Source: Burkholderiaceae bacterium
GTDB taxonomy: Bacteria; Pseudomonadota; Gammaproteobacteria; Burkholderiales; Burkholderiaceae_C
Length of the DNA: 60,354 nt
Direction: 5' to 3'
NCBI GenBank assembly: GCA_030654805.1
Contig: JAURWR010000119.1
Location: 1 to 60,354, forward strand
The notes below the pieces were generated by a model that made no database searches, had not been told where the DNA came from, and saw only the letters and a list, made by a program, of their open reading frames with translations. This document shows positions 31,107 to 60,354 of this stretch, piece after piece (the first letter of the stretch is position 1; every line of letters begins with the position of its first letter). A program made the translations under genes and the position numbers.

Positions 31107-31178
31107 GTAGAGCACTCCTGAACAATCCGATGAGACAACCGGGTCGGCGACTCGGCGGCTTCAGGCACTGCGCAAACG

Positions 31179-42947: not shown

Positions 42948-43141
42948 CGATCGCTGAGCCGCAGGGCAGTTGTTGACCACGGTATGCCGCCTTGCCGATG
43001 TGTTGATGCATGAATGCTGCACATCGATCGCAACAGTTCGATGACAAACAGGATCGTCACGCTGGTTTCACGCAACGCCGTCAACATGCGACGAGGCTGC
43101 GCCTGCCGGCGCTTCCATCAACCGGGACCCGGAGGCACGCC

Positions 43142-43750: not shown

Positions 43751-43806
43751 TCCGGCAGGGGGTCAGCCGGTCGGCCGCCGTTCGCGGCCGACCGGCTTCG
43801 AGGCCC

Positions 43807-45459: not shown

Positions 45460-45522
45460 GAGCAGGTGTGTTGATGTCCAACCCGTTATCTAACAGTCTC
45501 GATTGACAGGACCGTGAAAACC

Positions 45523-46389
45523 ATGAATCCGCTGCGCCGGCTCGTTGCCAACGAAGATCTCAATTTCCTGCTGACCAACCGGGTGCCGCGCATGCTGCTG
45601 ACGCGCTGGATGGGCTGGTTCAGCCAGATCCGCAACCCGTGGATTGCGCGCGCGTCGATTGCCGTCTGGCGGCTCTTCACCGACCTGGACCTGAGCGACG
45701 CCCGCCAGCAGCGCTTCGCCAGCCTGCACGACTGCTTCACGCGGGAGCTGCGGGAAGGCGCCCGCACGATCGATCAGCGTCCGGACATCCTGACCAGCCC
45801 GTGCGATGCGATCGTCGGCGCCTGCGGACGGGTCCATGACGGCCAGGTGTTCCAGGCCAAGGGCTTTCCGTATGCCATCCGTGACCTGTTCGGTCCGAGC
45901 CAGGACACCCGCGCCTTCCACCGCGGAACCTACGTGACCTTGCGACTCACGTCGGCGATGTACCACCGCTTCCACGCGCCACAGGATTGCGAGGTCGATC
46001 ACCTGACCTACCTGAGCGGCGACACCTGGAACGTCAACCCGATCGCATTGGCGCGGGTGGAGCAGTTGTTCTGCCGCAACGAGCGCGCCGTGCTGCGGTT
46101 GCGCATGCAGAACAGCGGACAGCCGATCGCGCTGGTGCCGGTCGCGGCCATCCTGGTCGCCAGCATCCGGCTGCATTTCCTCGACGTGCTGCTGCACCTG
46201 CGCTACCGCGGGCCGAACGAGATTGCCTGCAAGGCGCGCTTCGCCAAAGGTCAGGAGATGGGATGGTTCCAGCACGGTTCGACCATCCTGGTCTTCGCGC
46301 CGCCCGGCTTCACCTTGTGCGCCGGCATCGAGCCAGGTCGGCGCATCCGCATGGGCGAAGCACTGATGCATCAGGGCCCGCACGCGTGA
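45523..46389 (+). CDS. psd: Phosphatidylserine decarboxylase
   Basis: A 288-residue proenzyme that makes phosphatidylethanolamine. The pyruvoyl-forming cleavage site is present as H-G-S-T (G252-S253) near the C-terminus in place of the usual LGST. Other family residues are visible: LTSPCDAIVGACGRV, FHRGTYVTLRLTSAMYHRFHAP and LSGDTWNVNPIAL. The ATG at 45523 is preferred over a GTG nine bases earlier because of AGGA spacing. Confidence 0.9.
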   Translation: MNPLRRLVANEDLNFLLTNRVPRMLLTRWMGWFSQIRNPWIARASIAVWRLFTDLDLSDARQQRFASLHDCFTRELREGARTIDQRPDILTSPCDAIVGACGRVHDGQVFQAKGFPYAIRDLFGPSQDTRAFHRGTYVTLRLTSAMYHRFHAPQDCEVDHLTYLSGDTWNVNPIALARVEQLFCRNERAVLRLRMQNSGQPIALVPVAAILVASIRLHFLDVLLHLRYRGPNEIACKARFAKGQEMGWFQHGSTILVFAPPGFTLCAGIEPGRRIRMGEALMHQGPHA

Positions 46390-46459
46390 CTTGAAGCAGT
46401 CGCGCGCCAGACCGGGGTGCTTCGCAGGCGCACCCGGCCGGGGTGTGCCGTCGATGTCC

Positions 46460-47341
46460 TCAGGCGCGCGGCGCGATATCGACGCAGTGGACCGGAGACA
46501 CGGTCCCCGGCATCGGCAGCAGTGCCGACTCGGTCCGCGCCGGAGCCACCGCGACCTGCCGTGCCTCGGCGCTGCGGTCGATGATTTCGAGCCGGCCGTC
46601 GTGGTGCTCGACCAAGGCGGTGAGGCTCTCCACCCAATCACCGTCGTTGCAGTACAGCACGCCCTCGATCTCGCGGATCTCGGCGTGGTGGATGTGACCG
46701 CAGACGACACCATCGAGGCCGCGACTGCGGGTTTCGCGCGCCAGCGCCGCCTCGAAATCACCCACGTAGCTGACCGCGCGCTTGACCTTCAGCTTGAGAA
46801 AGCGAGACAGGCTCCAGTACGGCAGGCCGAGTCGCGCCCGGGCCACGTTGAAGCGGCGGTTCAGCCTCAGCGTGAACTCGTAGGCGATGTCGCCGACCTA
46901 GGCCAGCCACTTGGCGCACTGGATGACCCCGTCGAAGAGGTCCCCATGGGTCACCCACAGCCGGCGGCCGTCGGCCGTGGTGTGAACGCAGTCCTCGACG
47001 ATGTCGACGCCGCCGAAGTTGTGTGCCACGTATCGACGTGCGAACTCGTCGTGGTTGCCGGGCACGAAGATCACACGGGTGCCCTTGCGCGCCTTGCGCA
47101 GGATCTTCTGCACCACGTCGTTGTGGCTCTGCGGCCAGTACCAGGAGCGGCGCAGCTGCCAGCCATCGATGATGTCGCCGACGAGATACAGCGTCTGGCA
47201 CTCGGTGGTTCGCAGGAATTCGAGCAACGCCCGCGCCTGGCAACCGGGGGTTCCGAGATGCAGATCGGAGATCCATGCCGTACGCACGGACAAGGCCCCA
47301 TCCTCTTCAGTGCTGTCCATGCTTGCGCCTTCTGTGTGCAT
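46460..47341 (-). pseudogene. LpxH-like metallophosphoesterase interrupted by in-frame TAG
   Basis: The frame encodes a calcineurin-like phosphoesterase related to UDP-2,3-diacylglucosamine pyrophosphatase. All metal-binding blocks are present: ISDLHLG, VGDIIDGW, PGNHDE, VTHGDLFDG and, after the break, CGHIHHAE. A single TAG at 46898-46900 interrupts it after CAKWLA; the next codons (VGDIAYEFTLRLNRRFN) continue in the same frame with family similarity. This is a nonsense change, not a frameshift, so one base could restore it. It diverges from olsB. Sequencing error, recent loss or readthrough all remain possible. Confidence 0.85.
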
Positions 47342-47511
47342 GGACTCGCATGGTCACACCCTGACATGACACGGTGTTGACACAGTCTTCCCGCGTCGCC
47401 GGGAGCCTGCCGACACACGCCTGCGCAGCGCGCTGTCACCGTCCCGTCAGCAACTCTTCACGGCGATGTCATCGGCCGCCCCGAGCATCGCCGCGACCCA
47501 AGGAGAGATCG

Positions 47512-48378
47512 ATGAGGGACATGCCCGTGAATACCCAGCCGATGTTCGACCCGCGTCTGAACATGAACCCGTCGCGGTCCACGGCCCGACAGCCCGCGCC
47601 GCACACACCGACCGTGTACCGCCAGAAGGCTGCGGCAGCGCCGGTCGCTTTCGAGGCGGTCTGGGCACGCGACCTCGACGAGGTGCGACTGGCCCAGCAA
47701 CTTCGCCACCTCGTGTTCGTCGAGGAAATGGGCGCACGCGTGTCGCTTCCCGCTGGCACGCCGGCCGGCCACGACGCAGACCTTTTCGACGACCACTGCG
47801 AACACCTGCTGCTGCGCGTCACCACCGCGGATGGCGAGCCCGGCCCGGTGATCGGCACCTATCGCGTGCTGACACCCGCAGCGGCCAAACGCGTCGGCGG
47901 CCTGTACAGCGAGACCGAGTTCGACCTGACCCGACTGCGCTCCATGCGCGATCGCATGGCCGAGCTGGGGCGCTCGTGCGTGCACCCGGACTGGCGCACC
48001 GGCGGCGCGATTCTCGCCCTGTGGGCCGCACTCGCGGAGTTCATGAAACGCAACGCACTGGACACGATGATGGGCTGCGCGAGCGTCGGCATGCGCGACG
48101 GCGGCCACGTGGCCGCCAGCCTGTGGACCCAACTGCGCGACACCCACCTCGCGCCGATCGAGTGGCAGGTGCGCCCCCGTCTGCCGCTGCCGGTCGAGCA
48201 GCTGCAATGCGATCTCGATGTTGACCCTCCGGCGCTGATCAAGGGCTACCTGCGTTGTGGCGCCAAGGTCCTGGGACCGCCCGCCTGGGACCCGGCGTTC
48301 AACACCGCCGATCTGCCGATGCTGATCCGCCTGGCCGACCTGCCGCCTCGCTACCGGAAGCACTTTCTCGGCGAGTGA
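47512..48378 (+). CDS. Ornithine lipid N-acyltransferase-like protein (OlsB/GNAT)
   Basis: A 288-residue protein of the hemolysin-like GNAT family. VWARDLDEVRLAQQLRHLVFVEEMGAR, VIGTYRVLTPAAAKRVGGLYSETEFDL, ELGRSCVHPDWRTGGAI and LMGCASVGM-like motifs match OlsB, which acylates ornithine from acyl-ACP in ornithine lipid synthesis. AGGAGAGATCG precedes the ATG at 47512. Family members with other amino substrates exist, so ornithine is likely but not proven. Confidence 0.85.
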   Translation: MRDMPVNTQPMFDPRLNMNPSRSTARQPAPHTPTVYRQKAAAAPVAFEAVWARDLDEVRLAQQLRHLVFVEEMGARVSLPAGTPAGHDADLFDDHCEHLLLRVTTADGEPGPVIGTYRVLTPAAAKRVGGLYSETEFDLTRLRSMRDRMAELGRSCVHPDWRTGGAILALWAALAEFMKRNALDTMMGCASVGMRDGGHVAASLWTQLRDTHLAPIEWQVRPRLPLPVEQLQCDLDVDPPALIKGYLRCGAKVLGPPAWDPAFNTADLPMLIRLADLPPRYRKHFLGE

Positions 48379-48708: not shown

Positions 48709-49026
48709 TCATGCGGCCTTATGAGGAACAAGCTTGACCTGGAGATCGCAGCCGACAGCGGCCGCATATTTCTTCAGCGTTGCCAGTGACGGCGCGTGGC
48801 GGCCTGCCGCCTCGAGACGCGAGATTGCGCTCTTGGTCGTGCCCATGCGTTCGGCCACGGCGTCTTGAGTCATGCCTGCCTTAGCGCGAGCCTTGAGCAT
48901 TTGCCCGGCCAGTGCGTACTCAAGCTGAAGACTGTCGTATTCCTCGGCGAAACCCTGGCGCTTGCGTGCGGACGCAAGGAACTCGGCGTGATTGTGAGGA
49001 ACGGGTTTGTATTTCAGATCAGCCAT
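48709..49026 (-). CDS. higA: HigA-type antitoxin (XRE family HTH)
   Basis: A 105-residue DNA-binding antitoxin. The HTH is at about 58-83 (GMTQDAVAERMGTTKSAISRLEAAG), with family ending PSLATLKKYAAAVGCDLQVKL. It overlaps the toxin gene by eight bases, toxin first, as in higBA loci. It would neutralise the toxin and repress the operon. Its stop codon lies within a 12-bp sequence that recurs inverted beyond the toxin gene. Confidence 0.88.
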   Translation of the reverse strand: MADLKYKPVPHNHAEFLASARKRQGFAEEYDSLQLEYALAGQMLKARAKAGMTQDAVAERMGTTKSAISRLEAAGRHAPSLATLKKYAAAVGCDLQVKLVPHKAA

Positions 49027-49345
49027 GCTGCACCTCCTTAAGGCGTTTGCGAGCGAGCTTCAACTCGCTGTCAGGGGTTTGCTGCGTCTTTTTGATGAAT
49101 GCGTGCAAGACAACTACTCGCTGTCCGACCAGATAGCAGTAGAACGCTCGACCAATACCGGTGCGACCACGTGGCCGAAGCTCGAACAGACCATCGCCGA
49201 AGGCGCGCGAATGAGGCAACCGAAGGCTTGGCCCGTATTCGGCTAGAAGTTCGATCAGGTGTGCGTAGTCAGCGAGCACATCCACGGGCCACTCTTGGAT
49301 CTCGGAGCGCACCCGTTCGTGGAAGTAGTCGATTTGGTATGCCAT
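49019..49345 (-). CDS. higB: HigB/Gp49-type toxin (RelE superfamily)
   Basis: A 108-residue RelE-fold mRNA-cleaving toxin. MAYQIDYFHERVRSEIQEWP, GLFELRPRGRTGIGRAFYCY and VVVLHAFIKKTQQTP, followed by a Lys/Arg-rich helix, match the phage Gp49/HigB family. The ATG at 49345 is preferred over a frame five codons longer. The operator-like repeat lies directly upstream. Confidence 0.88.
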   Translation of the reverse strand: MAYQIDYFHERVRSEIQEWPVDVLADYAHLIELLAEYGPSLRLPHSRAFGDGLFELRPRGRTGIGRAFYCYLVGQRVVVLHAFIKKTQQTPDSELKLARKRLKEVQHG

Positions 49346-49352
49346 GCAGCAT

Positions 49353-49370
49353 GTTAGCAAATGTGCTAAC
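49353..49370 (-). promoter_or_regulatory. Operator-like inverted repeat of higBA
   Basis: GTTAGC-aaatgt-GCTAAC is a perfect 6-bp inverted repeat eight bases upstream of the toxin ATG. TAACAT within it could serve as the -10. The position is that expected for the HigA binding site in autorepression. Confidence 0.75.
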
Positions 49371-49394: not shown

Positions 49395-49475
49395 GCCGAA
49401 CGTTCAGCTTGAGGGGCTGTCCGGAAGCTGGTGAAGCCAGCTTTTGAACAGTCCCGCTCGAAGCGCTGGTTAGGC
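49395..49475 (-). repeat. attC-like recombination site between two cassettes
   Basis: Read leftward, the 81-bp site starts with GCCTAAC (a perfect RYYYAAC core, 49469-49475) and ends with GTTCGGC (49395-49401; close to GTTRRRY, with C for the first R). Between them an imperfect stem pairs AGC-CTT-GAG-GGG-CTGT elements with unpaired bases on one arm, and the tip is a perfect AAGCTGG/CCAGCTT hairpin (49425-49443). These are the features of integron attC sites. The upstream gene's stop codon lies in the first core, as is usual for cassettes. Confidence 0.7.
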
Positions 49476-50162
49476 AATGCTTAGATTCCTAGAGTTACAA
49501 GAGCGTCTGCGCTGAAATAGGCCAACCATTACCAGCCCAACCGTCAGTATTAAATAGGTTTCCGGCTCTGGCACTGCGGAAACGACTGACCCAGACAAAA
49601 ACATGCGATATCTGTTAGGCTCGTCATTCATATACCCCCAATTTGGAAAACTAGAATTGTTAATTGATATTATTTCGCCATCCGAAGTAACTGCCTGATT
49701 AGGTTGAACTAGGGTTAGGGCAATTCTTCCATTGGCCCCAAAAAGGCCAGAGCCAAAAATAAGCCCATAGGCACCTGGCAATAGCGTTGCATTGATTGAA
49801 ACCTGCGAGTCGATGCCCGAGTTTGGCGTAAACACGCTGTAGGCCAAAACCCCGTCAAGCTGCGTAAGATTTCCGGTAGGAAGACCGTTACCTCCTAAAT
49901 TAACAATGGCACCAAATATCGTGCCGCCAAGCCCAAAGCTGGGTGAACCGTTAATGTTATTGAAGTGCCCACCTATTGCTTCTACTTCCGTTGTCTGATT
50001 GATCGAAAAAGACGCCCCAATAAATTGAGTGCTACTGATGTCTGAACCGCCACAGCACCCCCAACTGTCAAATGGTCCTGTAGCCGATTGGAAAAAGATG
50101 TTTGCATTGGCATTCGTAACTGTTGCCAAAAAAATAGCCGCAAACAAGAAATATCTACTCAT
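49470..50162 (-). CDS. PEP-CTERM sorting domain protein in AT-rich DNA
   Basis: A 230-residue secreted protein. It has a signal peptide (MSRYFLFAAIFLATVTNANA), a Gly/Asn/Ser-rich body with no recognised fold, and the C-terminal signal AVPEPETYLILTVGLVMVG followed by RRR: the PEP-CTERM sorting tag used with exosortase. Codon use (many aat, att, aaa) differs sharply from every neighbour, so it was probably acquired. It ends inside the attC core. Function unknown; exosortase is not in this window. Confidence 0.88.
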   Translation of the reverse strand: MSRYFLFAAIFLATVTNANANIFFQSATGPFDSWGCCGGSDISSTQFIGASFSINQTTEVEAIGGHFNNINGSPSFGLGGTIFGAIVNLGGNGLPTGNLTQLDGVLAYSVFTPNSGIDSQVSINATLLPGAYGLIFGSGLFGANGRIALTLVQPNQAVTSDGEIISINNSSFPNWGYMNDEPNRYRMFLSGSVVSAVPEPETYLILTVGLVMVGLFQRRRSCNSRNLSIA

Positions 50163-50264: not shown

Positions 50265-50435
50265 GAGGCTGGGCAATAACCCGATTTCTGCGGGACACGC
50301 AGGGGCGGCTTGCTTGCAGCGGAGGAAGTTTTCTCATCGTTGGATTTGCCTCGCTGGCGAGGTCCGATCGGCACATTCTGATCGGCTTCTTCGCCGTCCT
50401 CGCACCTCGCGCGGGCTCAGCGCCCGTGCTCTGCC

Positions 50436-50579
50436 TCACCCCCATTTCCCGCTGTTCGCCACCTTCTCGATGTTGTGCACCAGGCAGAACAAGCGCCACT
50501 GTGTGCCCACCTTGTCCTTGCCTCGCAGCGTGAACCGGTTCAGCCGCTTGTTGTGGCGCAGGTTGCCGAACTGCCATGC
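50436..50579 (-). pseudogene. C-terminal remnant of a transposase (IS1182-like)
   Basis: About 47 residues read WQFGNLRHNKRLNRFTLRG, then KVGTQWRLFCLVHNIEKVA and a stop. This matches the C-terminal end of DDE transposases of the IS1182/IS5-like groups (FGxLKHNxGxxRFxLRGxxKVxxEWxLxCxxHN). No upstream part of the gene is present. It marks an old insertion at the junction of the cassette region and the glycan operon. Confidence 0.65.
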
Positions 50580-50622
50580 GCCCGGCCGCGCCTCAGGCTC
50601 GGTGGCAGTTCTGCGCGCCAAT

Positions 50623-50645
50623 GCTGTCGCTCGTTGAGCGACAGC
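50623..50645. repeat. Perfect 10-bp hairpin downstream of the glycan operon
   Basis: GCTGTCGCTC-gtt-GAGCGACAGC lies 63 bp after the stop of the last minus-strand glycan gene. No T-run follows on that strand. It may end the operon transcript or be part of the former insertion sequence. Confidence 0.5.
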
Positions 50646-50707
50646 GAATGATCGCAACGGGTCGAAAGTGCAGGTCAGCCGCGTTACGCCGACTGCTTCG
50701 GCGTTCC

Positions 50708-51949
50708 TTACGGATGCCCCTTGCCGATCGTGATGTAGCCGTCGATGCCGTCATGGGCCAGCACGTCGTTGGCCTCGAACACGGCTGAAGCGGGGGGCGT
50801 GGTCAGACCAACGGCCTCGCCTGCGGTCGTGCTGCAGCCTGCGAACTCCCAGCGGCCGGTTTCGGTTTCGCGCCACCAGCGCGGGTTGCGGTGCCGGTCG
50901 AGCAGGAAGCCCAGGCCGCTGCGGTCCAGGCCCAGCCACTCGCAGAACTTGTCGAGGTGTTGCGGCGCGGCCTGCTCGTGGCGGCGCACCAGTGCCAGGC
51001 CCTGCGCCCGGGTCAGCCGGCCGTGGCGGATCTCGCGGCACGCGTGGTCGGTGACCTTCGAGTAGCCGTGCTTGTGCAGCTTCAGCACGTCGTGCAGGTC
51101 CATGTAGTTCCAGCAGTCGACGTGGTCGTACGTGTCGAACGTGCGCGCGAACGCGGCGCTGCGATAGCCGCAGCGCTCGATCATCTGTTCGTGCTGCGCC
51201 TTCGGATCCCAGCGCACGTAGTTGCCGAGGTAGACGCCGCGCACACCGATCTCGGACAAGGCGGCGTCGTCCGGGTAGCGGTACTGCCAGATGTCGGATT
51301 CCTTCAGCGTGTCGAACATCGTCGGCAGGTCGTCGGCTTCGCGGCCCATCAGGTCGTGGTCCTGGCGGTGGCGGCGCGTCATCTCGACCTCGTCGTCGTG
51401 CGAGTACATGCCGACCTGCTCCAGCCCCTGGTGGGCGCCCCACAGGATCAGCGGGATGCGGTAGCGCACCGCCGTCTGCACCGGGAACACCGTCTGCCCG
51501 GCCAGGCAGTGCCAGTAGTCGCTGCCGAAGTCGCGCAGCGTCGCGCGGGTGATCTTCTTCACTGCGTGCGGGTTGACGTTCTGCTGGATCAGGTCGCAGT
51601 CGAACCGGATGCGCAGGTTCGCCAGGTTGCGGATGCCCAGCGCAGTGTTGAAGTACTTGTTGTAGGTGACCAGCAGCGGGTTCAGCCCGAGCCGCTGCTT
51701 GACCAGATGCACGATGTAATGCGAATCGCCCGCGCCGCTGACCGGCACGATGCAGTCGTAGGTGTCGCCGCTGCGGCTGCGGTACGGCGCCACCAGCGAT
51801 TCGAGACGCTGCCAGCGCTCGGCCCAGTCGAGGCGGTCCTTCTCCTCGTGCACGCGGCAGCCCGAACAGATGCCCTCGTCGTCGAGCACCAGTCCGAGCG
51901 GGTGCGCGCTGGTGTACAGGCAGCGGCGGCAGTGCATCAGGGCGGCCAT
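50708..51949 (-). CDS. N-acetyl sugar amidotransferase (WbpG/PseA family), copy 1
   Basis: A 413-residue ATP-PPase-like enzyme. N-terminal Cys pairs (MHCRRCLYT and ICSGCRVHEE) form a zinc site, then the P-loop-like VPVSGAGDSHY replaces the usual SGGKDS. Family members use ammonia from a HisH/HisF-like pair to turn an N-acetyl group into an acetamidino group; PseA of Campylobacter does this for pseudaminic acid. GGAG lies six bases before the ATG at 51949. A paralogue with the standard motif is at 53353. Confidence 0.85.
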   Translation of the reverse strand: MAALMHCRRCLYTSAHPLGLVLDDEGICSGCRVHEEKDRLDWAERWQRLESLVAPYRSRSGDTYDCIVPVSGAGDSHYIVHLVKQRLGLNPLLVTYNKYFNTALGIRNLANLRIRFDCDLIQQNVNPHAVKKITRATLRDFGSDYWHCLAGQTVFPVQTAVRYRIPLILWGAHQGLEQVGMYSHDDEVEMTRRHRQDHDLMGREADDLPTMFDTLKESDIWQYRYPDDAALSEIGVRGVYLGNYVRWDPKAQHEQMIERCGYRSAAFARTFDTYDHVDCWNYMDLHDVLKLHKHGYSKVTDHACREIRHGRLTRAQGLALVRRHEQAAPQHLDKFCEWLGLDRSGLGFLLDRHRNPRWWRETETGRWEFAGCSTTAGEAVGLTTPPASAVFEANDVLAHDGIDGYITIGKGHP

Positions 51950-51951
51950 GA

Positions 51952-52737
51952 TCAGCTCCAGGCTCGCGCCGGGTCGAGCGGCGCATGCGTCGGCGCGCGC
52001 AGCGGCAGCCCGGCCAGCGACTGCTTCAGGCGCTGCACCGCATGCTCGCGGTGGTTGAGAAAGTTGCCGACGGCCGCCGCCACGACGTTCGGGCGCTCGA
52101 GCACGCCGCGCAGTTGTGCCGGTTCGCTCAGCCCGCCGAACGCGATCAACGGCAAGGTGGGCATCGGCCACAGCGACAGCAGCCGTTCGTCGAAGCCACC
52201 GGGCACGCCCTCGTGCTGCCAGTCGACCAGCAGCACCTCGGAGATCGCGCCGGACGCCAGCACGTCGAGCAACTTCTGGGGCACCGGCGTCGAGCGGCGG
52301 CTGCGGTGGTCCAGCCAGGCCAGCGCGCCGTCGTTCACCGACAGCGGCAGCACTGCCACCAGCGCCTGCGCGCCGAGCGGCTCGGCCAGCGCGGCGGCCA
52401 GTTGTGGGTCGTCGTGCAGCAGCGCGTCGATGCCGATGCGCTCGGCTCCGGCCTGCACCGCACGCACACCGTCGGCGACGCTGCGCACCCCACCGGCATA
52501 GACCAGCGGCGTGGCCAGCCCGCGACGACAAATCCGGTCGAGCAGCGCCAGGTCGGGCCCGCCGCCGTGCGCATCGCGGTCGATGCATTGCAGCAGGATC
52601 TCGTCGACGCCCCAGCGGTCCAGGTTCTCGGCGATCACCTCGGGTTGCCCGAGCGGCCGGTGCCGTCGATACCCGATCGATTGCACCGCCCAGCCGTCCT
52701 TGACGGTGATGACGCCGATCAGTCGCTTCTCAAGCAC
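51952..52737 (-). CDS. HisF-like (imidazole glycerol phosphate synthase-type) subunit
   Basis: A 261-residue TIM-barrel protein. It begins MLEKRLIGVITVKDGWAVQS, close to HisF (RIIPCLDV...), and shows the two half-barrel phosphate sites LVYAGGVRSVADG and LIAFGGLSEPAQL. The first catalytic Asp region of true HisF is altered (VKDGWAV). In WbpG-type clusters such proteins deliver ammonia from the HisH-like glutaminase to the amidotransferase rather than making histidine. It overlaps the hisH-like gene by eight bases. Confidence 0.85.
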   Translation of the reverse strand: MLEKRLIGVITVKDGWAVQSIGYRRHRPLGQPEVIAENLDRWGVDEILLQCIDRDAHGGGPDLALLDRICRRGLATPLVYAGGVRSVADGVRAVQAGAERIGIDALLHDDPQLAAALAEPLGAQALVAVLPLSVNDGALAWLDHRSRRSTPVPQKLLDVLASGAISEVLLVDWQHEGVPGGFDERLLSLWPMPTLPLIAFGGLSEPAQLRGVLERPNVVAAAVGNFLNHREHAVQRLKQSLAGLPLRAPTHAPLDPARAWS

Positions 52738-53341
52738 GGCACAGGCCCTCGATCACGTTGTTCAGCAGCGTGCGCCCGGCGAGCTGGCTCTTCTCGGGGT
52801 GGAACTGCAGGCCGACCACCTTGCCGCGTCGCACCGCGACGGTGAAGGCATCGGCGAGCCGCGAGATGCCGATGCAGTACGGCGGCGGCGTGTCGAACGC
52901 ATAAGCGTGGTTGAAGTACAGCGACTGTCCGTCGCTCGGCGACAGCAGCGCATCTTCGGGGTCGATCTCGATCGTGTTCCAGCCGATGTGCCAGCGCGCA
53001 CCGGCGAGCGGCCGCACACGGCCCGGGATCAACCCCAGGCCGGCGGTGAGCCGGTGTTCCAGCGACATTTCGGCCAGCAACTGCATGCCCAGGCAGATGC
53101 CGATGAGCGGCTGCCCGCCCCGGGCCTGCTGCCGCAGGAAACTGACCAGCCCGTGCTCGTGCAGCGACGCCATCGCCGCCGGAAACGCGCCGACACCGGG
53201 CAGCACGATCGCGTCGGCCGCGGCCAGCGTGTCGGTGTCGCGGGTGACGCGGCAGCGGTGGCCGAGGCCGGTGATCGCGCGCGCCACCGACGCCAGGTTG
53301 CCCGCGCCGTAGTCGACGACACCGATCGTGAGTCGCTTCAT
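52730..53341 (-). CDS. HisH-like glutamine amidotransferase
   Basis: A 203-residue class I glutaminase. MKRLTIGVVDYGAGNLASV is the HisH start, the nucleophile is C83 in GICLGMQLLAE, and the His-Glu pair lies in QFHPEKSQ. AAGGAGG precedes the ATG at 53341; the longer open frame overlaps the next gene and was rejected. It should supply ammonia to the HisF-like partner and the flanking amidotransferases. Confidence 0.9.
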   Translation of the reverse strand: MKRLTIGVVDYGAGNLASVARAITGLGHRCRVTRDTDTLAAADAIVLPGVGAFPAAMASLHEHGLVSFLRQQARGGQPLIGICLGMQLLAEMSLEHRLTAGLGLIPGRVRPLAGARWHIGWNTIEIDPEDALLSPSDGQSLYFNHAYAFDTPPPYCIGISRLADAFTVAVRRGKVVGLQFHPEKSQLAGRTLLNNVIEGLCRA

Positions 53342-53352
53342 GCCGGCCTCCT

Positions 53353-54480
53353 TCACAGCCCCACCCCCACCTGGAAGCGACGGTGGATGCGGCCGTCGCC
53401 ATCGATGTCGAACAGCGTGCGATTGGTCGCGGCATGCACCTGCCGCCAGAACGCGTCGACGCCGATGCCGAGGTAGTCGCAGTAGCGCGCGATGTAGTCC
53501 GGCGAGCAGGCGTGGTCGTGCTGCTCGACCAGTTCGATGCCGCGCTCGCGGCTCATGCGCCCGAGGCGGATCTCCTCGTTGACGTAGTCGGTCGTGCGGC
53601 CGAAGCCGAACTTGAAGTACTTGATCATCTGGTTGATCGGCGTGAAGTCCTCGTCGAGCGCGGTCACGCCGAACAGGTCGCCGGTGTCGGCCACGCCGTC
53701 GGTGCGGATCTCCAGCCCCTGCGCGCACGAATGCATCGCGTTGTTGACCAGCGACCAGTCGCCCAGGAACCAGCCCAGGTAGATGATCTGCAGGCCCAGC
53801 GCGTCGAACTCCTCGGGCTGCGGGTAGACGTAGGGCAGCAGCTGGCGACGATCATGGCCGGCGTCGAGCATCCATTGCAGGCCACTGGACAGCGTGTTCA
53901 TGTGGCGCAGGTTGTTGCCGTCGTAGCCGGTCTTGCCCAGCGTCTTCAGGTCACCGAGCTGCAGCGCCGGGTTCTCGCCCCACAGGATCAGGTCGATGCC
54001 ATAGCGCAGCGCGATCTGCGGCACCGCCGAGAACAGCGCCAGCTCGGTCGAGCGGAACGAGTTGGTGAAGCGCTCGAAACCCTGGCGCTTCAGCGTGCGC
54101 CAGGTGGCCGGGGCGGGCTGCGAGACCAGCACGTCGAAACCCAGGTCGATCAGGTTCGACAGGTTGTGCATGCCACGGTCGGTGGCCTGCTCGGGCGGAT
54201 AGCCCAGGCACACCAGCAGCGGGTTGACGTCGAACTTGTCGCGCACCCACAGCGCCTGGCGCGTGCTGTCCTTGCCGCCCGAGACACCGATGATGCAGTC
54301 GTGGAACTGGCCCGGCTTGCGGCGACGGCTCGCGAACAGGTCGGTCAGGATGTCGATGCGCTCCTGCCAGTCGACGCCGCGCACCGCATCGACGTAGTCG
54401 CACGCCGGGCAGATGCCGGCGTCGCTGAAACGGGTGTTCGGCCGGGTGTCGGGCTGCAGGCAGCGCAGGCAGTAACGCAT
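53353..54480 (-). CDS. N-acetyl sugar amidotransferase (WbpG/PseA family), copy 2
   Basis: A 375-residue paralogue with N-terminal Cys pairs (MRYCLRCLQPDTRP; ICPACDY) and the standard ATP-pyrophosphatase loop IIGVSGGKDSTRQ, followed by NPLLVCLGYPPEQATDRG. It overlaps the hisH-like RBS region. With its partners it should convert an acetamido group of a nonulosonate to an amidine. No clear RBS is seen before the ATG at 54480. Confidence 0.88.
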   Translation of the reverse strand: MRYCLRCLQPDTRPNTRFSDAGICPACDYVDAVRGVDWQERIDILTDLFASRRRKPGQFHDCIIGVSGGKDSTRQALWVRDKFDVNPLLVCLGYPPEQATDRGMHNLSNLIDLGFDVLVSQPAPATWRTLKRQGFERFTNSFRSTELALFSAVPQIALRYGIDLILWGENPALQLGDLKTLGKTGYDGNNLRHMNTLSSGLQWMLDAGHDRRQLLPYVYPQPEEFDALGLQIIYLGWFLGDWSLVNNAMHSCAQGLEIRTDGVADTGDLFGVTALDEDFTPINQMIKYFKFGFGRTTDYVNEEIRLGRMSRERGIELVEQHDHACSPDYIARYCDYLGIGVDAFWRQVHAATNRTLFDIDGDGRIHRRFQVGVGL

Positions 54481-54508
54481 GGTGGATGGGCGGCGCGTCA
54501 GTCGGCAG

Positions 54509-55348
54509 TCAGTCGGCAAAGCGGAAACCCTGCTCGCGCGCCAGCGCCTGCATCTCGGGCGGCACGCGGTAGGTGTTCAGGTAGGTGTAGTCCTTGCGGC
54601 GATGGATGAACTCGCTGTAGGCCGCCGCATGGTGGTTGTCGCGCGCCGCGATGAAGAACAGCGCCAGCTTGGCGCCGTAGGGTGCGGCGCCCGAGGTCGG
54701 CGTGGCGCGGTGGTCGAGCCGCGTGTGGAACACCACCAGGTCGCCCGCCTGCGCGCCGAGCACCGTGCCCTGCTGCTGCGCGCGCGCCTGGAAGCGCTGC
54801 GCCGCATCGGGCTGCCCGGCATCGGGCTTCGGCACGAGGTGACTGCCGTTGACGACCGACACGCCGCCGCCGTGCTCGGCGGTGTTGTCCTGCAGGTAGA
54901 CCGCGCACTGGTAGATCGCGTGGTCGGCGCTCCAGTGCGCCATGCTGCCGGCGTACTCGAACATGTCGGTGTCCTTGTGCCAGCCACCGAAACCGTCGCG
55001 GTGCGCCGCGTGCTCGGGCAGCAACACGAAGCCCGGGCCGATCAGCTCGTTCAGCACGGCGGCGGTGCGCGGCTGGAACAGACGTCGATAGATACCGGGA
55101 AACCGGAACAGGTCGAGCAGCACGCCACCGCAGCCGGGTGGCGTGAGGATGCTGTCGGCATTGTTTGGCGAGGTGAAGGCATCGTCGACCTCGTGGCGCA
55201 GCGCCTGCACCGCATCGGGACCGAAAACGCCGCAGGCGTTGTACCAGCCCTGACGCGCCAGTTGCTGCGCCGGGTCGCGGCTGCTGGTGCGGCTGATGAC
55301 GACCACCGGGTCGCGGGTGGCGGCAGGGGAAGCGAGTGCGGTCTGCAT
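54509..55348 (-). CDS. Phytanoyl-CoA dioxygenase family (Fe(II)/2-oxoglutarate) enzyme
   Basis: A 279-residue PhyH-type oxygenase. The iron ligands appear as H-x-D in GWHKDTDMFEY and the distal His in HTRLDHRATPTSG, with a downstream Arg/Lys-rich strand for 2-oxoglutarate (PYGAKLALFF). Such enzymes hydroxylate small molecules; within this operon a sugar hydroxylation is likely but inferred. The ATG at 55348 was preferred to a longer frame. Confidence 0.85.
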   Translation of the reverse strand: MQTALASPAATRDPVVVISRTSSRDPAQQLARQGWYNACGVFGPDAVQALRHEVDDAFTSPNNADSILTPPGCGGVLLDLFRFPGIYRRLFQPRTAAVLNELIGPGFVLLPEHAAHRDGFGGWHKDTDMFEYAGSMAHWSADHAIYQCAVYLQDNTAEHGGGVSVVNGSHLVPKPDAGQPDAAQRFQARAQQQGTVLGAQAGDLVVFHTRLDHRATPTSGAAPYGAKLALFFIAARDNHHAAAYSEFIHRRKDYTYLNTYRVPPEMQALAREQGFRFAD

Positions 55349-55361
55349 GATGGGCGTGGCC

Positions 55362-56378
55362 TCAGCGCTTGCGGGCGATTGCGCGCAGGTTGCCGGACAG
55401 GCCGTGGTCGGCCAGAAATTGCTGGAACGGCGCCGCGAGCCGCGCGTGGTCGGTGACCAACAGCTGCTGAAGGAACGGTTGCGCCGACACATCGCAGCGG
55501 CCCGCTTGCACCGCCTCGCGCACCAGCTCGACATCGAGCCGGCCCGGGGTCGCGACGTCCAGCACCTCGCAGTCCAGCCGATCGAGCAGGCGGGCGATCG
55601 ACGCCGGGTTGAACAGGTTCACATGCTCGGTGTCGACCGCGACCGACTCGGCGCCGAGCACCTGGGTGTCGAAGCCGTTGCCGTTCGGGCAGGTCAGCAC
55701 CAGCAGACCGCCGGACTTCAGCAGACGCAGTGCGCGTGCGAGGAACGGCACCGGGTCATACACATGTTCGATGACCTCGAAGCACACCAGCACATCGGCC
55801 GGATCGTCGAAGCGCTCGGGCAGGTCCTCGACGGCGGTCTCGTGCACGGTGAGCCCATGGCGGCGGCAGGCGGCAGCCATCTCGGGCGTGCGCTCGACGA
55901 CCGAGACGCGCTCGAACGCGCCGCTGTCGCGCGCCAGCGCCGCGAAGGTGCCGAAGCCCGGGCCCAGTTCGATCAGGTGGCCCGGCCGCACGCCGTGCGC
56001 GGCGCAGGCCGCAGCGATCGTTGCCAGCAGCGGTCGGCACAGCTTGTCGCGCCGCCGGTCCTCGGAGGCCGGGAAGATGTGCTCGGCCCAGAGACGGTAG
56101 TTCTCGGAGTGGCGGTAGTAGTCGTCCATCAGCGCCGGCGTCGGGCGCGGCGACATGTACAGCGTGTCGCAGTCGTGGCAACGCACGAACTGGCAGCGGT
56201 ACTTGTCGAAGGCGCGGCTGGCGGCGGTCTGCCCGCAGGCCGGACACGGCACCGCGACGAAATCGCCCAGGTGCTGGTGCAGCCGCGCGTGGTCGCGCGC
56301 CATCGCCTCGCGTTGCAGCGCCATGAATTGCGGGCCGCGGATCTCCGCGATGCTGAGAGTCTCTGGAGAAGTCGTCAT
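55362..56378 (-). CDS. Zinc-ribbon class I SAM methyltransferase
   Basis: A 338-residue protein with an N-terminal zinc ribbon (CPACGQ at about 45-50 and CHDC at about 67-70) and a methyltransferase domain: LIELGPGFGTFAALA, VLVCFEVIEHVYDP, LVLTCPNGNGFD. This layout is common in sugar C- or O-methyltransferases of polysaccharide clusters. It could methylate the nonulosonate or its side chain. It lies 13 bp from the dioxygenase gene. Confidence 0.85.
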   Translation of the reverse strand: MTTSPETLSIAEIRGPQFMALQREAMARDHARLHQHLGDFVAVPCPACGQTAASRAFDKYRCQFVRCHDCDTLYMSPRPTPALMDDYYRHSENYRLWAEHIFPASEDRRRDKLCRPLLATIAAACAAHGVRPGHLIELGPGFGTFAALARDSGAFERVSVVERTPEMAAACRRHGLTVHETAVEDLPERFDDPADVLVCFEVIEHVYDPVPFLARALRLLKSGGLLVLTCPNGNGFDTQVLGAESVAVDTEHVNLFNPASIARLLDRLDCEVLDVATPGRLDVELVREAVQAGRCDVSAQPFLQQLLVTDHARLAAPFQQFLADHGLSGNLRAIARKR

Positions 56379-56393
56379 GGAGCAATGTCTCTG

Positions 56394-57461
56394 TCAGGCG
56401 GCGAGCACGACGCCCGCGGGATGAACCAGCGACCAGCTGGCGGGCGTGCCGCGCTGCACGTCCTGGCGCACGCTGCAACCGAGCAGTGCATCCAGTTCAC
56501 GCGGCGGCAGGCCGTAGCCGGGGCGGATGGCGCGCAGGTTGGCTGCGGTGAGCACGTCTCCGGCCTTCAGGTCTTCGACGATGTAGAGCGATCGGCGGTA
56601 GCGCATCGATGCGGTCTCGGCCACCGACATGCCGAAGCTCGGCGCGCCGAGTGCCTGCCAGGCGCGCTCGGTCTCGATGCGCAGCTGCGCGAATTCGGCG
56701 GGTTCGAGCGAGAACGCCGCATCGACACCGCCTTCGGCGCGCGACTCGGTGAAATGCTTCTCGATGACGACCGCGCCGAACGCCACGGCTGCCACCGCAG
56801 CGCCGCAGCCCATCGTGTGGTCGGACAGCCCGACATCGCAGCCGAAGGCGTCGCGCAGCACCGGGATGCTGCGCAGGTTGGTGTTCAGCGGCGTGGACGG
56901 GTAGGTGCTGGTGCACTTGAGCAGCACCAGATCGCGGCAGCCGGCGGCACGCGCGGTGCGCACGGTCTCGTCGATCTCGGCCAGCGTGGCCATGCCGGTG
57001 GAGATGATCATCGGCTTGCCGGTGGCCGCCACCTTGCGGACAAGCGGCAGGTCGGTGCACTCGAACGACGCGATCTTGTAGGCCGGCACGCCCAGTGTTT
57101 CGAGGAAGTCGACTGCGGTGTCGTCGAACGGCGTGCTGAAGCAGTGCAGTCCCAGCGCGGCAGCGCGCTCCATGATCGGGCGGTGCCAGGCCCACGGCGT
57201 GTGCGCCTCGCGGTACAGGTCGTAGAGCTGGCGGCCCGCCCACAGGCTTTTCGGGTCGTCGATCAGGAAACCCGGCGCGCGGATGTCCAGCGTCATCGTG
57301 TCGGGCGTGTAGGTCTGCAGCTTGATCGCGTCGGCACCGGCCGCGGCGGCAGCCTCGACGATGCGCAGCGCGCGGTCGAGCGACTGGTTGTGGTTGCCGC
57401 TCATCTCGGCGATCACGTAGGGTCGCGCATCGGCACCGACGGTGCGGTCGCCGATCAGCAT
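56394..57461 (-). CDS. pseI: Pseudaminic acid synthase PseI (NeuB family)
   Basis: PseI (355 residues) condenses a 6-deoxy-diacetamido-altrose with PEP. NeuB-fold motifs are present: VIAEMSGNHNQSLDRA, AIKLQTYTPDTMT, CFSTPFDD, YKIASFECTDLPLV, TGMAT and LSDHTMG, plus a C-terminal SAF domain (SLYIVEDLKAGDVLTAANLR). The EMSGNHNQS form fits PseI better than NeuB or LegI. GAGG lies upstream of the ATG. Confidence 0.9.
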   Translation of the reverse strand: MLIGDRTVGADARPYVIAEMSGNHNQSLDRALRIVEAAAAAGADAIKLQTYTPDTMTLDIRAPGFLIDDPKSLWAGRQLYDLYREAHTPWAWHRPIMERAAALGLHCFSTPFDDTAVDFLETLGVPAYKIASFECTDLPLVRKVAATGKPMIISTGMATLAEIDETVRTARAAGCRDLVLLKCTSTYPSTPLNTNLRSIPVLRDAFGCDVGLSDHTMGCGAAVAAVAFGAVVIEKHFTESRAEGGVDAAFSLEPAEFAQLRIETERAWQALGAPSFGMSVAETASMRYRRSLYIVEDLKAGDVLTAANLRAIRPGYGLPPRELDALLGCSVRQDVQRGTPASWSLVHPAGVVLAA

Positions 57462-57637
57462 CGGTGGCCTCGCAGCACGTGCGGGGTGCCCGGTCGGGGC
57501 GGTGCGGTATCGAACATGGCCGGAGGCTCCTCGTGGATCGGCCCGTCGGCGGGCAGCATCCTGTCAGCCGATCTTAGGAAGGCCGGCCCGGACGATGCGG
57601 TGGAAAAGCGGCCGGTTCGACCGCCAGTTCGCGCGGC

Positions 57638-58273
57638 CTACAGCGGGTCGATGCGCAGCCGGTAGGTGCGTCCGCGGTGCTCGAAGAACGCCGGGTAGCG
57701 GTCGGGATCGGCCACGCGCAGCAGGTCGAACGAATCGGCCAGCGGGCGCAGCGGGTCGATGCGGCTGTCGGTGGGCACGCGTTTTCGGTACAGGCTGGCC
57801 TCGCCCGCCTGCTCGCGCGGGACGACGGTGTCGCGGTGCGCCAGCGCCCAATCCATCAGCGCGATCTCGGCATCGAAGATCAGTGCGTTGATCTCGCCGC
57901 ACACCGCGGTGTCGGGGATCGGCACGTCGTGCTGATGCCAGATGCGGCCGGTGTCGAGCGCGTCCTCGGCCTCCAGAAGCGTCATCGTCAGCAGCTCGCA
58001 GCCATCGAGGATCTGCCAGATGTGCGGCGACATGCCGCGCCCCGCCGGCAAGGCGCTGGCGTGCAGCACCAGCGTGTGCTTGAAGAGTGCGCGTACCGAG
58101 GCGGAGATGATCTGATGGCACGACACCAGGAACAGCACGTCGCCGCCGCCCAGTTCGCGCCAGTCGCGGCAGATTCGCACCTCGACCTGCGGCGCCACTG
58201 CGGCGGCCCACCGTTCCAGCCAGGCGTTGACGCCGTGCTTCGGGTCGGTGCACAGGATCGAAACGGTGGTCAT
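57638..58273 (-). CDS. Methionyl-tRNA formyltransferase-like sugar N-formyltransferase
   Basis: A 211-residue protein. LFLVSCHQIISASVRALF, HASALPAGRGMSPHIWQIL and LDTGRIWHQHDVPI follow the formyl-transferase fold, with HxSxLPxxRG equivalent to the HPSLLPxYRG of known enzymes. It lies where PseH-type acetyltransferase might be expected and could add N-formyl to the sugar amine, which is an inference. It overlaps pseG by four bases. Confidence 0.82.
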   Translation of the reverse strand: MTTVSILCTDPKHGVNAWLERWAAAVAPQVEVRICRDWRELGGGDVLFLVSCHQIISASVRALFKHTLVLHASALPAGRGMSPHIWQILDGCELLTMTLLEAEDALDTGRIWHQHDVPIPDTAVCGEINALIFDAEIALMDWALAHRDTVVPREQAGEASLYRKRVPTDSRIDPLRPLADSFDLLRVADPDRYPAFFEHRGRTYRLRIDPL

Positions 58274-59340
58274 CGGGCTGTCGGGCGCGAGGTGGGTCGG
58301 TCCATGTCGAGCAGCCGGCGCGCGACGCGACGCGCACCGAGGCCGTCGACCAGTTCGCGGCCGTGCACCGACAGCGAATGGCGCAGCGCCGCATCGACGA
58401 TCAGCTCGCGCAGCGGCGGCGCGATGTCGGCGGCGCGCGGCGGTTCGGCGGTCACGACACGCATCACGCCCAGGTTCTGCAGCGGCAGCAGCACCTCGCG
58501 CTGGTTCGGCGCGGCCAGCAGCGCCAGCGTCGGCGCGCCGAGGCAGCAGCGCTCCCAGGTCGCGCCGCCGCCGGCACCGAGGTGCAGGTCGTGCCGCGCG
58601 TAGAACGCGGCCAGATCGGGCTGATCGAGCGTGAGCCGCGTGGCTGGATCGGCGGCGACCTTCGCACGCAGCGCCGCCAGATGCGGGTTGCCCGAGGTGG
58701 TCGCGATCTCGACGGTGCCCTGAAAGCCCAGGTCGTCGCGCACCACGGCGAGCGCCAGCGAACTCAGGTCGGCCTCGTCGGTGCCGCCCATGAAGATGCC
58801 GATGCTGGTCACGCTGTCGCGCGGTTCGCCGCGCGGTGCGTCAGCGTAGGCCGGGGACAGCAGGGCATAGCCGGGACCGCCCAGCAGCACCGGCGGCGCC
58901 GCGCCGTGGCGCGTGTGCTTGGCGGCGTGGTCAGAGGCCATGTTGGGGTCGACCAGCAGATCGACCGCCATCGGGCGGTCGCCCAGGTCGTCGATCGCGG
59001 CCATCTGCGCGCCGGTGCCCTCGTGCACGGCGCGGTGCCACGACGCCCCGAGCGCGTAGTGGTCGGCCAGCACCGCATCGGGCTCGAAGCTGCGGCTGCT
59101 GGCGATGAAGGCGCGCGCGTCATCGCGTTCGGCGTCGCGGTCGCGCACCGGGCCATCGGCGAAGGCGTGGCAGTCGAAGCCGCGCCGGGCGATTTCACCG
59201 GCGGCGTCGACATCGGTCGCGCGCACGAAGAACTGCACTTCGGCGTCCTCGTCGCGCAGCGCCTGCGCGAGCGACAGGCAGCGCTTGATGTGGCCGAGGC
59301 CGATGGACGCCGAGGCGTCGGCACGGATCGCGATCTTCAT
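58270..59340 (-). CDS. pseG: UDP-2,4-diacetamido-2,4,6-trideoxy-altropyranose hydrolase PseG
   Basis: PseG (356 residues) removes UDP before PseI acts. The N-terminus MKIAIRADASASIGLGHIKRC holds the catalytic His (H17) and the glycine-rich start; the C-terminal GT-B-like nucleotide site contains LHLGAGGGATWERCCLGAPTL. ATGA overlaps occur on both sides, with pseF and the formyltransferase. Confidence 0.92.
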   Translation of the reverse strand: MKIAIRADASASIGLGHIKRCLSLAQALRDEDAEVQFFVRATDVDAAGEIARRGFDCHAFADGPVRDRDAERDDARAFIASSRSFEPDAVLADHYALGASWHRAVHEGTGAQMAAIDDLGDRPMAVDLLVDPNMASDHAAKHTRHGAAPPVLLGGPGYALLSPAYADAPRGEPRDSVTSIGIFMGGTDEADLSSLALAVVRDDLGFQGTVEIATTSGNPHLAALRAKVAADPATRLTLDQPDLAAFYARHDLHLGAGGGATWERCCLGAPTLALLAAPNQREVLLPLQNLGVMRVVTAEPPRAADIAPPLRELIVDAALRHSLSVHGRELVDGLGARRVARRLLDMDRPTSRPTAR

Positions 59341-60044
59341 GGTGTGGGTTCCTCCGTGCGCGTGCGCGCTGCGTACAGCGCTTCGGCGAGCGCCCAGTCG
59401 GCGGGCGTGTCGATGTCGACCGCACGGCCTTCGTCCAGCACCAGCGTGCGCGCATCGGCGTGCAGCGCCAGCCCGTCGAGCCAGGCGGATGCACGGCCCC
59501 AGTAGAACTGGCCGGCGTCGTGGAAGGCCGGCGGCAGGTCCTGCGTGCGCGTTTGCGCATGCTCGGGGTGGAACGGTGCGCTGCGCCCGCCGGCGTCGCG
59601 CCGCAGCGCGCGCTGGATCGGCGATCGGTACGCGAGCACCGGGAACGCATACGGCGCATCGCCCTGCTCCAGCAGTTCGAGCGCGGCGACCAGATCGGCC
59701 GCCTGCAACAGCGGCACCGCCGGGTACAGGCAGCACACGGTGTCGACGCGCCAGCCGAGTTCGCGGCAAGCACGGATCGCGTGGGCGACCACCGGCACCG
59801 TTGGCGTGTGGTCATTCGACAGCTCGTCGGGCCGGATGAAGGGCACTTCGGCACCGAGGCGCCGGGCCACGTCCGCGACTTCGGCGCCGTCGGTCGACAC
59901 GACGATGTGATCGAACAGGCCGCTGGCCCGCGCCAGATCGATCGCGTAGCCGATCATCGGCCGACCCGCGAAGGTCCGGATGTTCTTGCGTGGGATGCGC
60001 TTGCTGCCGCCGCGCGCGGGGATGACGGCGAGGCGGCCATTCAT
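59337..60044 (-). CDS. pseF: CMP-pseudaminic acid cytidylyltransferase PseF
   Basis: PseF (235 residues) activates the nonulosonate with CTP. MNGRLAVIPARGGSKRIPRKN is the cytidylyltransferase signature, then DHIVVSTDGAEVADVA and a C-terminal VDIDTPADW. The ATG at 60044 has GGAG upstream. It is the first visible gene of the minus-strand glycan operon; PseB, PseC and PseH, if present, lie beyond the right edge. Confidence 0.92.
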   Translation of the reverse strand: MNGRLAVIPARGGSKRIPRKNIRTFAGRPMIGYAIDLARASGLFDHIVVSTDGAEVADVARRLGAEVPFIRPDELSNDHTPTVPVVAHAIRACRELGWRVDTVCCLYPAVPLLQAADLVAALELLEQGDAPYAFPVLAYRSPIQRALRRDAGGRSAPFHPEHAQTRTQDLPPAFHDAGQFYWGRASAWLDGLALHADARTLVLDEGRAVDIDTPADWALAEALYAARTRTEEPTP

Positions 60045-60134
60045 GTCAGTTGCTCCACGGCGCGTGTCGCGACCCACGACCTCTGAGAGGGGTGCGTGAT
60101 GTGGGCGCGCTTGCCGGGGCCACTGGGTACCTCA

Positions 60135-60342
60135 CTCCGCGAATGTCCCCCGGCTTCGCCTCCTCCTTTATTTCGCTGCGTGAGATACCCAGCGTCCCCG
60201 GCACGGGCAACGGCACCTTGTATTCGTCGATCAGCCACGGTGCTGCTGGATCACGTCGGCGGCGTGCGCTGCGCAGCGAAATAAAGAAGGAGGCCGCAGG
60301 CCGGGTGACATTCGCGGAGCAGTGCACGCCGCCGACGTGATC
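60135..60342. repeat. Nested inverted-repeat element upstream of pseF
   Basis: Outer arms 60135-60180 and 60272-60319 are inverted copies: CTCCGCGAATGTC/GACATTCGCGGAG and TTTATTTCGCTGCG/CGCAGCGAAATAAA match perfectly. A second perfect 19-bp pair (60249-60267 and 60324-60342) straddles the right arm, so two alternative folds compete. It fills most of the 310-bp gap before pseF. The arms resemble a dispersed intergenic repeat rather than a gene. Confidence 0.75.
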
Positions 60343-60354
60343 GCGCGCCGCACC

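Follow-up and report, generated by a model that had tools for sequence, protein, structure and literature searches.

Does an operon that carries two sugar amidotransferase genes around a single hisH/hisF-like pair make a sugar with two amidines? The question is raised by ten minus-strand open reading frames (ORFs) that run from position 60044 down to 50708 of the window, the whole 60,354-nucleotide stretch analysed here, which is one entire contig (C26; GenBank JAURWR010000119.1, assembly GCA_030654805.1) of the 131-contig, 3.87-Mb genome of a Burkholderiaceae bacterium. In order of transcription, and as named from Pfam and NCBIfam profiles scored against curated cut-offs, they are pseF, pseG, a formyltransferase gene, pseI, a methyltransferase gene, a PhyH dioxygenase gene, WbuX1, HisH, a HisF-like gene and WbuX2. 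A preliminary description of the locus had made these gene calls and had read both WbuX proteins as amidotransferases of the PseA type. The explanation that we favour, with somewhat more confidence than doubt, is that the operon makes an amidinated, N-formylated pseudaminic acid (Pse) and that WbuX1, HisH, HisF and WbuX2 form one amidine synthase in which WbuX2 is a non-adenylating partner; to a similar degree we expect one amidine on the product, not two.

WbuX1 (53353-54480) is a canonical N-acetyl sugar amidotransferase (NASAT) with the motifs SGGKDS and WGENP (TIGR03573, 246 bits; cut-off 203), and it bears out the potential for amidination that had been claimed for the operon. WbuX2 (50708-51949) is a diverged paralogue that also exceeds the cut-off of this profile (316 bits) but reads SGAGDS and WGAHQ at the same places, and so has neither SGGxDS nor the GEN glutamate. 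SGGXDS is given as the family motif of NASATs in the available part of PMC10607449. A search with WbuX2, taking one genome per species, returned 63 loci, many of them in metagenome-assembled genomes (MAGs) and all bearing names as deposited. The ATP-pyrophosphatase loop (PP-loop) of WbuX1 was SGGKDS in 65/65 sequences, a count that includes L057 and L058, and the GEN glutamate was present in 63/63. In WbuX2, SGGxDS was found in 3/65, the remainder having TGANDS, SGANDS, TGAQDS and similar loops, with RGTAEY in the long-branched L059 protein; the GEN glutamate was found in 0/62 and, in a wider set, 0/65 (these WbuX2 counts exclude the solo enzymes L060 and L061, as well as L057 and L058, which come from the same genomes as L062 and L116). 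All 21 solo NASATs, a set that leaves out five weaker matches (L053-L056 and a second copy in L084), have both SGGKD and the GEN glutamate. Thirty-one alignment columns are common, at 90% or above, to the 21 solo enzymes and 63 WbuX1 proteins, and 20 of them are also conserved at 90% or above in 62 WbuX2 proteins; among the columns lost, the second loop glycine is kept in 15% of WbuX2 sequences, the loop lysine in 2% and the GEN glutamate in none of the 62. With the PP-loop altered in 62/65 and the GEN glutamate in 65/65, the second WbuX is not the plain PseA-type amidotransferase that had been proposed, and two amidations therefore do not follow from two genes.

WbuX2 has nevertheless not been released from selection. 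Over 58 matched loci (of 64, the 63 and the window), 77 of 415 WbuX2 columns are invariant, versus 43 of 376 in WbuX1, at mean identities of 63.1 and 61.7%; with more invariant columns than WbuX1 and no internal stops, a decaying pseudogene was rejected. Both proteins exceed the TIGR03573 cut-off, carry a tetracysteine and are predicted to adopt the NASAT fold. The best match of the predicted models was the crystal structure of the Legionella NASAT, 8wex, with template modelling (TM) scores of 0.73-0.79 for WbuX2 and 0.79-0.84 for WbuX1 and mean predicted local distance difference test (pLDDT) values of 84 and 93; the structure alignments, A1 and A2, held 42 sequences each (that of the window with 41 of the 59 and of the 60). 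When 144 sequences were placed in a tree by a quick method, with some long branches, WbuX1 and WbuX2 fell into separate groups (SH-aLRT, the approximate likelihood-ratio support, 99 and 100) and the solo NASATs outside both; L068, L081, L101 and L104 were left out of the tree, and rows shorter than 330 residues out of both the tree and the shared-column comparison. In L126 (genome G259), which does not stand in the tree, the partner of an SGGKDS NASAT is a WbuX2-type protein (43%) whose loop is VGTGDD and which has GVN for GEN.

The four genes travel together. The 63 loci span Pseudomonadota, Bacteroidota, Cyanobacteriota, Verrucomicrobiota, Chlorobiota, Omnitrophota and other phyla; the order WbuX1-HisH-HisF-WbuX2 occurs in 60/63 and all four genes in 61/63, the exceptions to the order being L095, cut by a contig end, L117, differently arranged, and L124, with WbuX2 alone in view. 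In 57 of the 61 four-gene loci none of the three intergenic distances falls outside the range of -60 to 120 bases. Draws of 200 genomes of the family and 369 of the class, each including the genome of the window, yielded a WbuX2-type protein (at least 43% identity) four times apiece, and each time another NASAT lay no more than about 3 kb away (4/4 and 4/4). In 48/63 loci, and in 36/36 of those uncut by contig ends, the visible sequence includes a PseI-like gene (NeuB family, profile E up to 1e-10). Other neighbours vary. A Gfo/Idh oxidoreductase gene occurs in 32/63 loci, a DegT aminotransferase gene of the L064 type in 39 and both in 31, an indication that in many relatives the sugar receives a further amine; the operon of the window lacks both and has the methyltransferase and PhyH genes instead. 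We also observed, at L064 (6559-7488) and in its relatives, a protein of about 310 residues with no Pfam or NCBIfam match, which occurs in 36/63 loci and immediately precedes WbuX1 in 30; a small acetyltransferase-like gene often stands with it, as do Gfo/Idh and DegT, and it may take part in adding one more amino group to the sugar.

The glutaminase pair between the two NASATs is intact at one end and altered at the other. HisH (52730-53341; TIGR01855, 182 bits, cut-off 105) has the triad Cys83/His181/Glu183, and the Cys-His-Glu triad is kept in 67/67 HisH proteins. The HisF/WbuZ-type barrel (51952-52737, GTG start) is diverged, with a TIGR03572 score of 96 bits against a cut-off of 300, and falls far short of the cut-offs for WbuZ, AglZ/HisF2 and HisF (TIGR03572, NF038364 and TIGR00735). 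Asp11 and Asp130, in Thermotoga HisF numbering, are presumably the residues needed for cyclase activity; aspartate stands at the first position in 0/67 HisF sequences and at the second in 12/67, and the window protein has threonine and Pro131 there (the sets of 67 HisH and 67 HisF include L057, L058 and the solo-type L060). Judged from these residues, the barrel can serve as a channel for ammonia but is unlikely to act as a cyclase, and the loss of Asp11 in 67/67 led us to reject a second histidine biosynthesis set. In the mechanism that we propose, HisH would release ammonia from glutamine and the cyclase-dead HisF barrel would conduct it onward, WbuX1 would adenylate an N-acyl carbonyl with ATP, and attack by the ammonia would give the amidine. 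WbuX2, a NASAT paralogue in which the PP-loop and GEN motif have been re-shaped and the remainder is strongly constrained, would bind the sugar or dock HisHF. Extended to the many phyla in which the cassette occurs, this would mean amidination by a hetero-complex, the NASAT having diverged into one subunit that does the catalysis and a conserved pseudo-NASAT that has become indispensable for substrate capture, HisHF gating or a different chemistry, a generalisation that we offer tentatively.

Several observations weigh against this interpretation. The loop lysine is not universal even among solo enzymes, five more distant matches having SGGRDS, SGGLDS or SGGADS, so that the glycine and the glutamate carry more weight than the lysine. 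WbuX2 keeps most of the loop in L117 (SGGRDS) and in L125 (SGGRDA; a locus not in the tree), and almost everywhere it keeps the first loop glycine and the Asp-Ser, and may thus still bind ATP. The two NASATs of L125 are adjacent, with no HisH or HisF between them, and L124 holds WbuX2 with the other three genes not in view, so WbuX2 may occur alone. Asp11 is also missing from the solo-type HisF of L060, and its loss is hence no marker of the cassette. Finally, with many loci being MAGs, binning errors are possible.

Two other accounts of WbuX2 have to be set against that of a non-adenylating partner. If both WbuX proteins were active and shared one HisHF, acting on two N-acyl groups (the 5-N-acetyl and 7-N-formyl, or an extra N-acetyl), the product would be a di-amidine, with a computed residue mass, before methyl and hydroxyl, of 300.143 instead of the 301.127 computed for one amidine. 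The scores of both proteins above the TIGR03573 cut-off and the NASAT fold predicted for both would fit such activity, as would the strongly conserved loop aspartate and serine of WbuX2, and Gfo/Idh with DegT offers a possible source of a further amine in 31/63 loci; yet the cassette is unchanged between loci with and without these extra amine genes, and the motifs that fail in WbuX2 (GEN glutamate in 0/65, SGGxDS in 3/65) are fully conserved in the 21 solo NASATs and 63 WbuX1 proteins, which makes the di-amidine unlikely in our estimation. A somewhat smaller likelihood still is given to a neofunctionalised WbuX2 that is not a mere partner but performs a different reaction on the amidine or the sugar, such as non-adenylating transfer or use of another amine. 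For a scaffold, its 77 invariant columns, with numerous His, Asp, Cys and Trp among them, seem excessive, and the re-shaped motif GAHQ is itself conserved; against this, the sequence points to no reaction that could be named, and WbuX2 is found with WbuX1 and HisHF in 61/63 loci. The single-synthase interpretation has consequences for annotation as well as for mechanism. Should the cassette be a single machine, an annotation with two amidotransferases, and hence two predicted amidines, would mislead, and the four proteins would offer a testable model for how, outside histidine synthesis, ammonia from HisH/HisF is delivered to an enzyme that modifies a sugar.

The genes upstream of the cassette account for the sugar itself. 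CMP-pseudaminic acid synthetase (pseF, 59337-60044; TIGR03584, 280.5 bits, cut-off 206), the 356-residue UDP-sugar hydrolase (pseG, 58270-59340; TIGR03590, 203.9 bits, cut-off 154) and pseudaminic acid synthase (pseI, 56394-57461; TIGR03586, 474 bits, cut-off 340) flank or precede a sugar N-formyltransferase in the pseH position (57638-58273; PF00551, Formyl_trans_N, 39.4 bits, cut-off 26). The ten ORFs overlap by 4-8 bases or are separated by 2-28, except that 176 bases lie between the formyltransferase gene and pseI; a simple scan of 50400-60354 found no sigma-70-like promoter. A separate assembly, the Rhizobacter sp. MAG locus L101, has the identical gene order at 87-99% protein identity; there, the end of pseC and residues 1-143 of pseF are lost in a 100-N gap, and WbuX2 is cut by the contig end. 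Aquincola tertiaricarbonis (L057) has the same order unbroken, but a GNAT domain fused to PseG (seen by eye) replaces the formyltransferase. Because the order recurs in separate assemblies, the run is not a product of chance or artefact, an origin that we rejected, and the ten-gene operon of the earlier account stands.

PseB, PseC and PseH had been expected just right of the window. There is no sequence to the right, since the window is a whole contig, but pseB and pseC were found at the end of contig C34, and with them PseB, PseC, PseG, PseI and PseF are all represented above their curated cut-offs, in support of the claimed pseudaminic acid pathway. The 193 bp that terminate C34, directly after pseC, match an imperfect palindromic element at the end of the window contig (60160-60352) on the opposite strand at 96.9%. 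In L101 pseC and pseF are scaffolded over 100 N at the equivalent place, and in A. tertiaricarbonis they are adjacent without N, the aligned parts lying 16 bases apart. Taken together, the match of the C34 end and the pseC-pseF order in these two relatives indicate that the operon most likely begins pseB-pseC-pseF; the two contigs very probably abut, an adjacency drawn from these comparisons, which would give the order pseB-pseC-(contig break)-pseF-pseG-formyltransferase-pseI-methyltransferase-PhyH-WbuX1-HisH-HisF-WbuX2. The palindromic element common to both contig ends (C34 copy at L023, 12426-12618) apparently lies between pseC and pseF; no copy was found in the L101 locus, where the 100 N occupy that place.

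The genome holds a second pseB and pseC pair above cut-off on contig C107 (L024), within a full ordinary pseBCFGHI set. C107 has a GC content of 0.561 versus 0.667, other measured stretches of the genome being 66-67% GC, and is probably foreign or a contaminant; on this GC difference, and with pseB, C, F, G, H and I standing together beside O-antigen-like genes (by eye), we rejected it as a source of PseB, PseC or PseH for the operon. The sole PseH match in a search of the genome lies on C107. The pseG of the window has no fused GNAT domain, unlike those of Aquincola and Bordetella genomosp. 1; in the latter, the domain fused to PseG (by eye, as in Aquincola; 37% to the C107 PseH) occupies the slot of the window's formyltransferase. 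With PseH confined to a foreign-looking contig and a formyltransferase in the pseH slot, the formylation that had been proposed gains support, and 7-N-formyl pseudaminic acid (Pse5Ac7Fo) is the likely core sugar as predicted from these genes. The nearest solved chains to the formyltransferase are 1zgh (E 2e-11) and, weakly, PseJ 6ci2 (E 0.002), and the gene was detected in 7/63 related loci. What we take to be the active site of the sugar N-formyltransferase family, Asn-His-Asp, retains its His and Asp and has Val for Asn in all eight aligned sequences, from the window and seven relatives. On the proposed pathway, PseB and PseC would give UDP-4-amino-L-AltNAc, the formyltransferase, replacing PseH, would formylate the 4-amine (later that of C7), and PseG, PseI and PseF would lead to CMP-Pse5Ac7Fo. 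We infer this order of steps, and the substrate and position of the later amidination, from the enzymes present; the operon thereby predicts a formylated and amidinated pseudaminic acid of definite mass. The computed residue masses are 302.111 for Pse5Ac7Fo, 301.127 with one amidine, 315.143 when a methyl is added to that and 331.138 with a hydroxyl as well.

Two further genes may decorate this sugar, and profile matches above cut-off uphold the potential for methylation and hydroxylation that had been assigned to them. The class I methyltransferase (55362-56378; PF13489, 69 bits, cut-off 27), with N-terminal Cys pairs, was detected in 9/63 loci and the PhyH-type Fe(II)/2-oxoglutarate dioxygenase (54509-55348; PF05721, 34 bits, cut-off 22) in 4/63, and both are present in L062, L063, L100 and L101. 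The available part of PMC3766260 describes PtmH as N-methylating an amidine; by analogy, the methyltransferase may act on the amidine here, and PhyH may hydroxylate the sugar.

Flagellin is a plausible target of the sugar, as had been suggested. Two flagellin genes (30300-31115 and 31320-32123, minus strand; both PF00669 and PF00700) are candidate acceptors on the same contig, which also carries FliS, FliD and CheW/MCP genes; a third Flagellin_N match of the genome lies on contig C12 (68 bits). Adjoining the flagellins is a gene for a tetratricopeptide repeat (TPR) protein with a GT41-type glycosyltransferase (33751-35691, plus strand; PF13844, 309 bits), for which a role in their glycosylation can be supposed. 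Ahead of the pse genes, C34 carries flhDC (Pfam) and ORFs that read by eye as MotB, CheY, CheZ and CheA, and the operon would lie between two flagellar blocks if C34 and the window contig adjoin. This support is circumstantial, and no transferase was identified: Maf (PF01973, PF20157) gave no match in the genome in searches that both lacked a bacterial positive control, and was set aside as the transferase on that result, the controls being uninformative.

The product might instead be destined for an O-antigen, a capsule or another surface glycan, which we consider unlikely. The missing Maf match, with the limit on its controls just given, would agree with such a destination, and so would an orphan of no known family that precedes pseB, also in Aquincola; most of the genes scanned between 41 and 50 kb concern lipids, toxin-antitoxin pairs or PEP-CTERM proteins, and the related cassette at L064 adjoins a Capsule_synth gene. 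On the other side, flhDC and che/mot-like ORFs stand before the operon and two flagellin genes after it, and no Wzx/Wzy-like ORF was noticed on C34 or among the scanned window proteins, although no dedicated search was made. The orphan, 610 residues long (L023, 8294-10126; in Aquincola, L057), had no Pfam, NCBIfam or convincing PDB match and may itself be the transferase for this sugar.

Elsewhere in the window, the lipid gene group (41766-48378) comprises genes for phosphatidylserine decarboxylase, a GT4 glycosyltransferase, an ornithine-acyltransferase-like GNAT protein and a class III aminotransferase. A calcineurin-like phosphoesterase gene (46460-47341, minus strand) is interrupted by a stop or a shift of frame and reads as two ORFs, and a Gp49-like toxin with its HTH antitoxin (48709-49360, minus strand) lies beside a PEP-CTERM protein gene (49470-50162).

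The closest known counterparts of the cassette are WbpG, WbuX and LpNASAT of P. aeruginosa O5, E. coli O145 and L. pneumophila, which likewise join an acetamidino-forming NASAT of the 8wex fold to a glutaminase and a HisF-like barrel encoded nearby, HisH2 and HisF2 being, as we understand it, the partners of WbpG. They differ from the window in that here two NASATs of separate clades, one with altered motifs, flank one HisHF. PseJ (PDB 6ci2 and 6ci4, so named by the depositors), reportedly a formyltransferase, resembles the local formyltransferase, which matches it weakly and is nearer to 1zgh; a search of the open-licence literature turned up no paper on PseJ. Pairing of NASAT paralogues is not discussed in the available part of PMC10607449, where the legend to Figure 2 names two V. 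vulnificus proteins with consecutive accessions. In C. jejuni and C. coli, PseA, PtmG and PtmH likewise amidinate a nonulosonate and, as may also happen here, methylate the amidine, going by the accessible portions of PMC3766260 and PMC13317340; the operon differs by its formyl core, dioxygenase and paired NASATs. Its predicted core is the 7-formamido pseudaminic acid known from Pseudoalteromonas distincta KMM 638, for which the available text of PMC3210612 mentions no amidine. According to the part of PMC7591256 at hand, Caulobacter FlmG, a TPR protein with a glycosyltransferase, glycosylates flagellin with Pse without Maf; the window similarly has a TPR protein with a glycosyltransferase beside its flagellins and no Maf was found in its genome, but the local glycosyltransferase is of the GT41 type. 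The sugar had been put forward as a combination not yet described, and among the matches listed from the open-licence literature we met neither formyl with amidine nor a paired intact and altered NASAT cassette, nor a division of labour between NASATs of the kind proposed here. Novelty does not extend to the separate modifications, however, with 7-formamido Pse and amidine N-methylation each described in the portions of PMC3210612 and PMC3766260 available; formylated pseudaminic acid, acetamidino sugars and N-methylated amidines are all known singly, and what is new is that an intact and an altered NASAT form a conserved pair.

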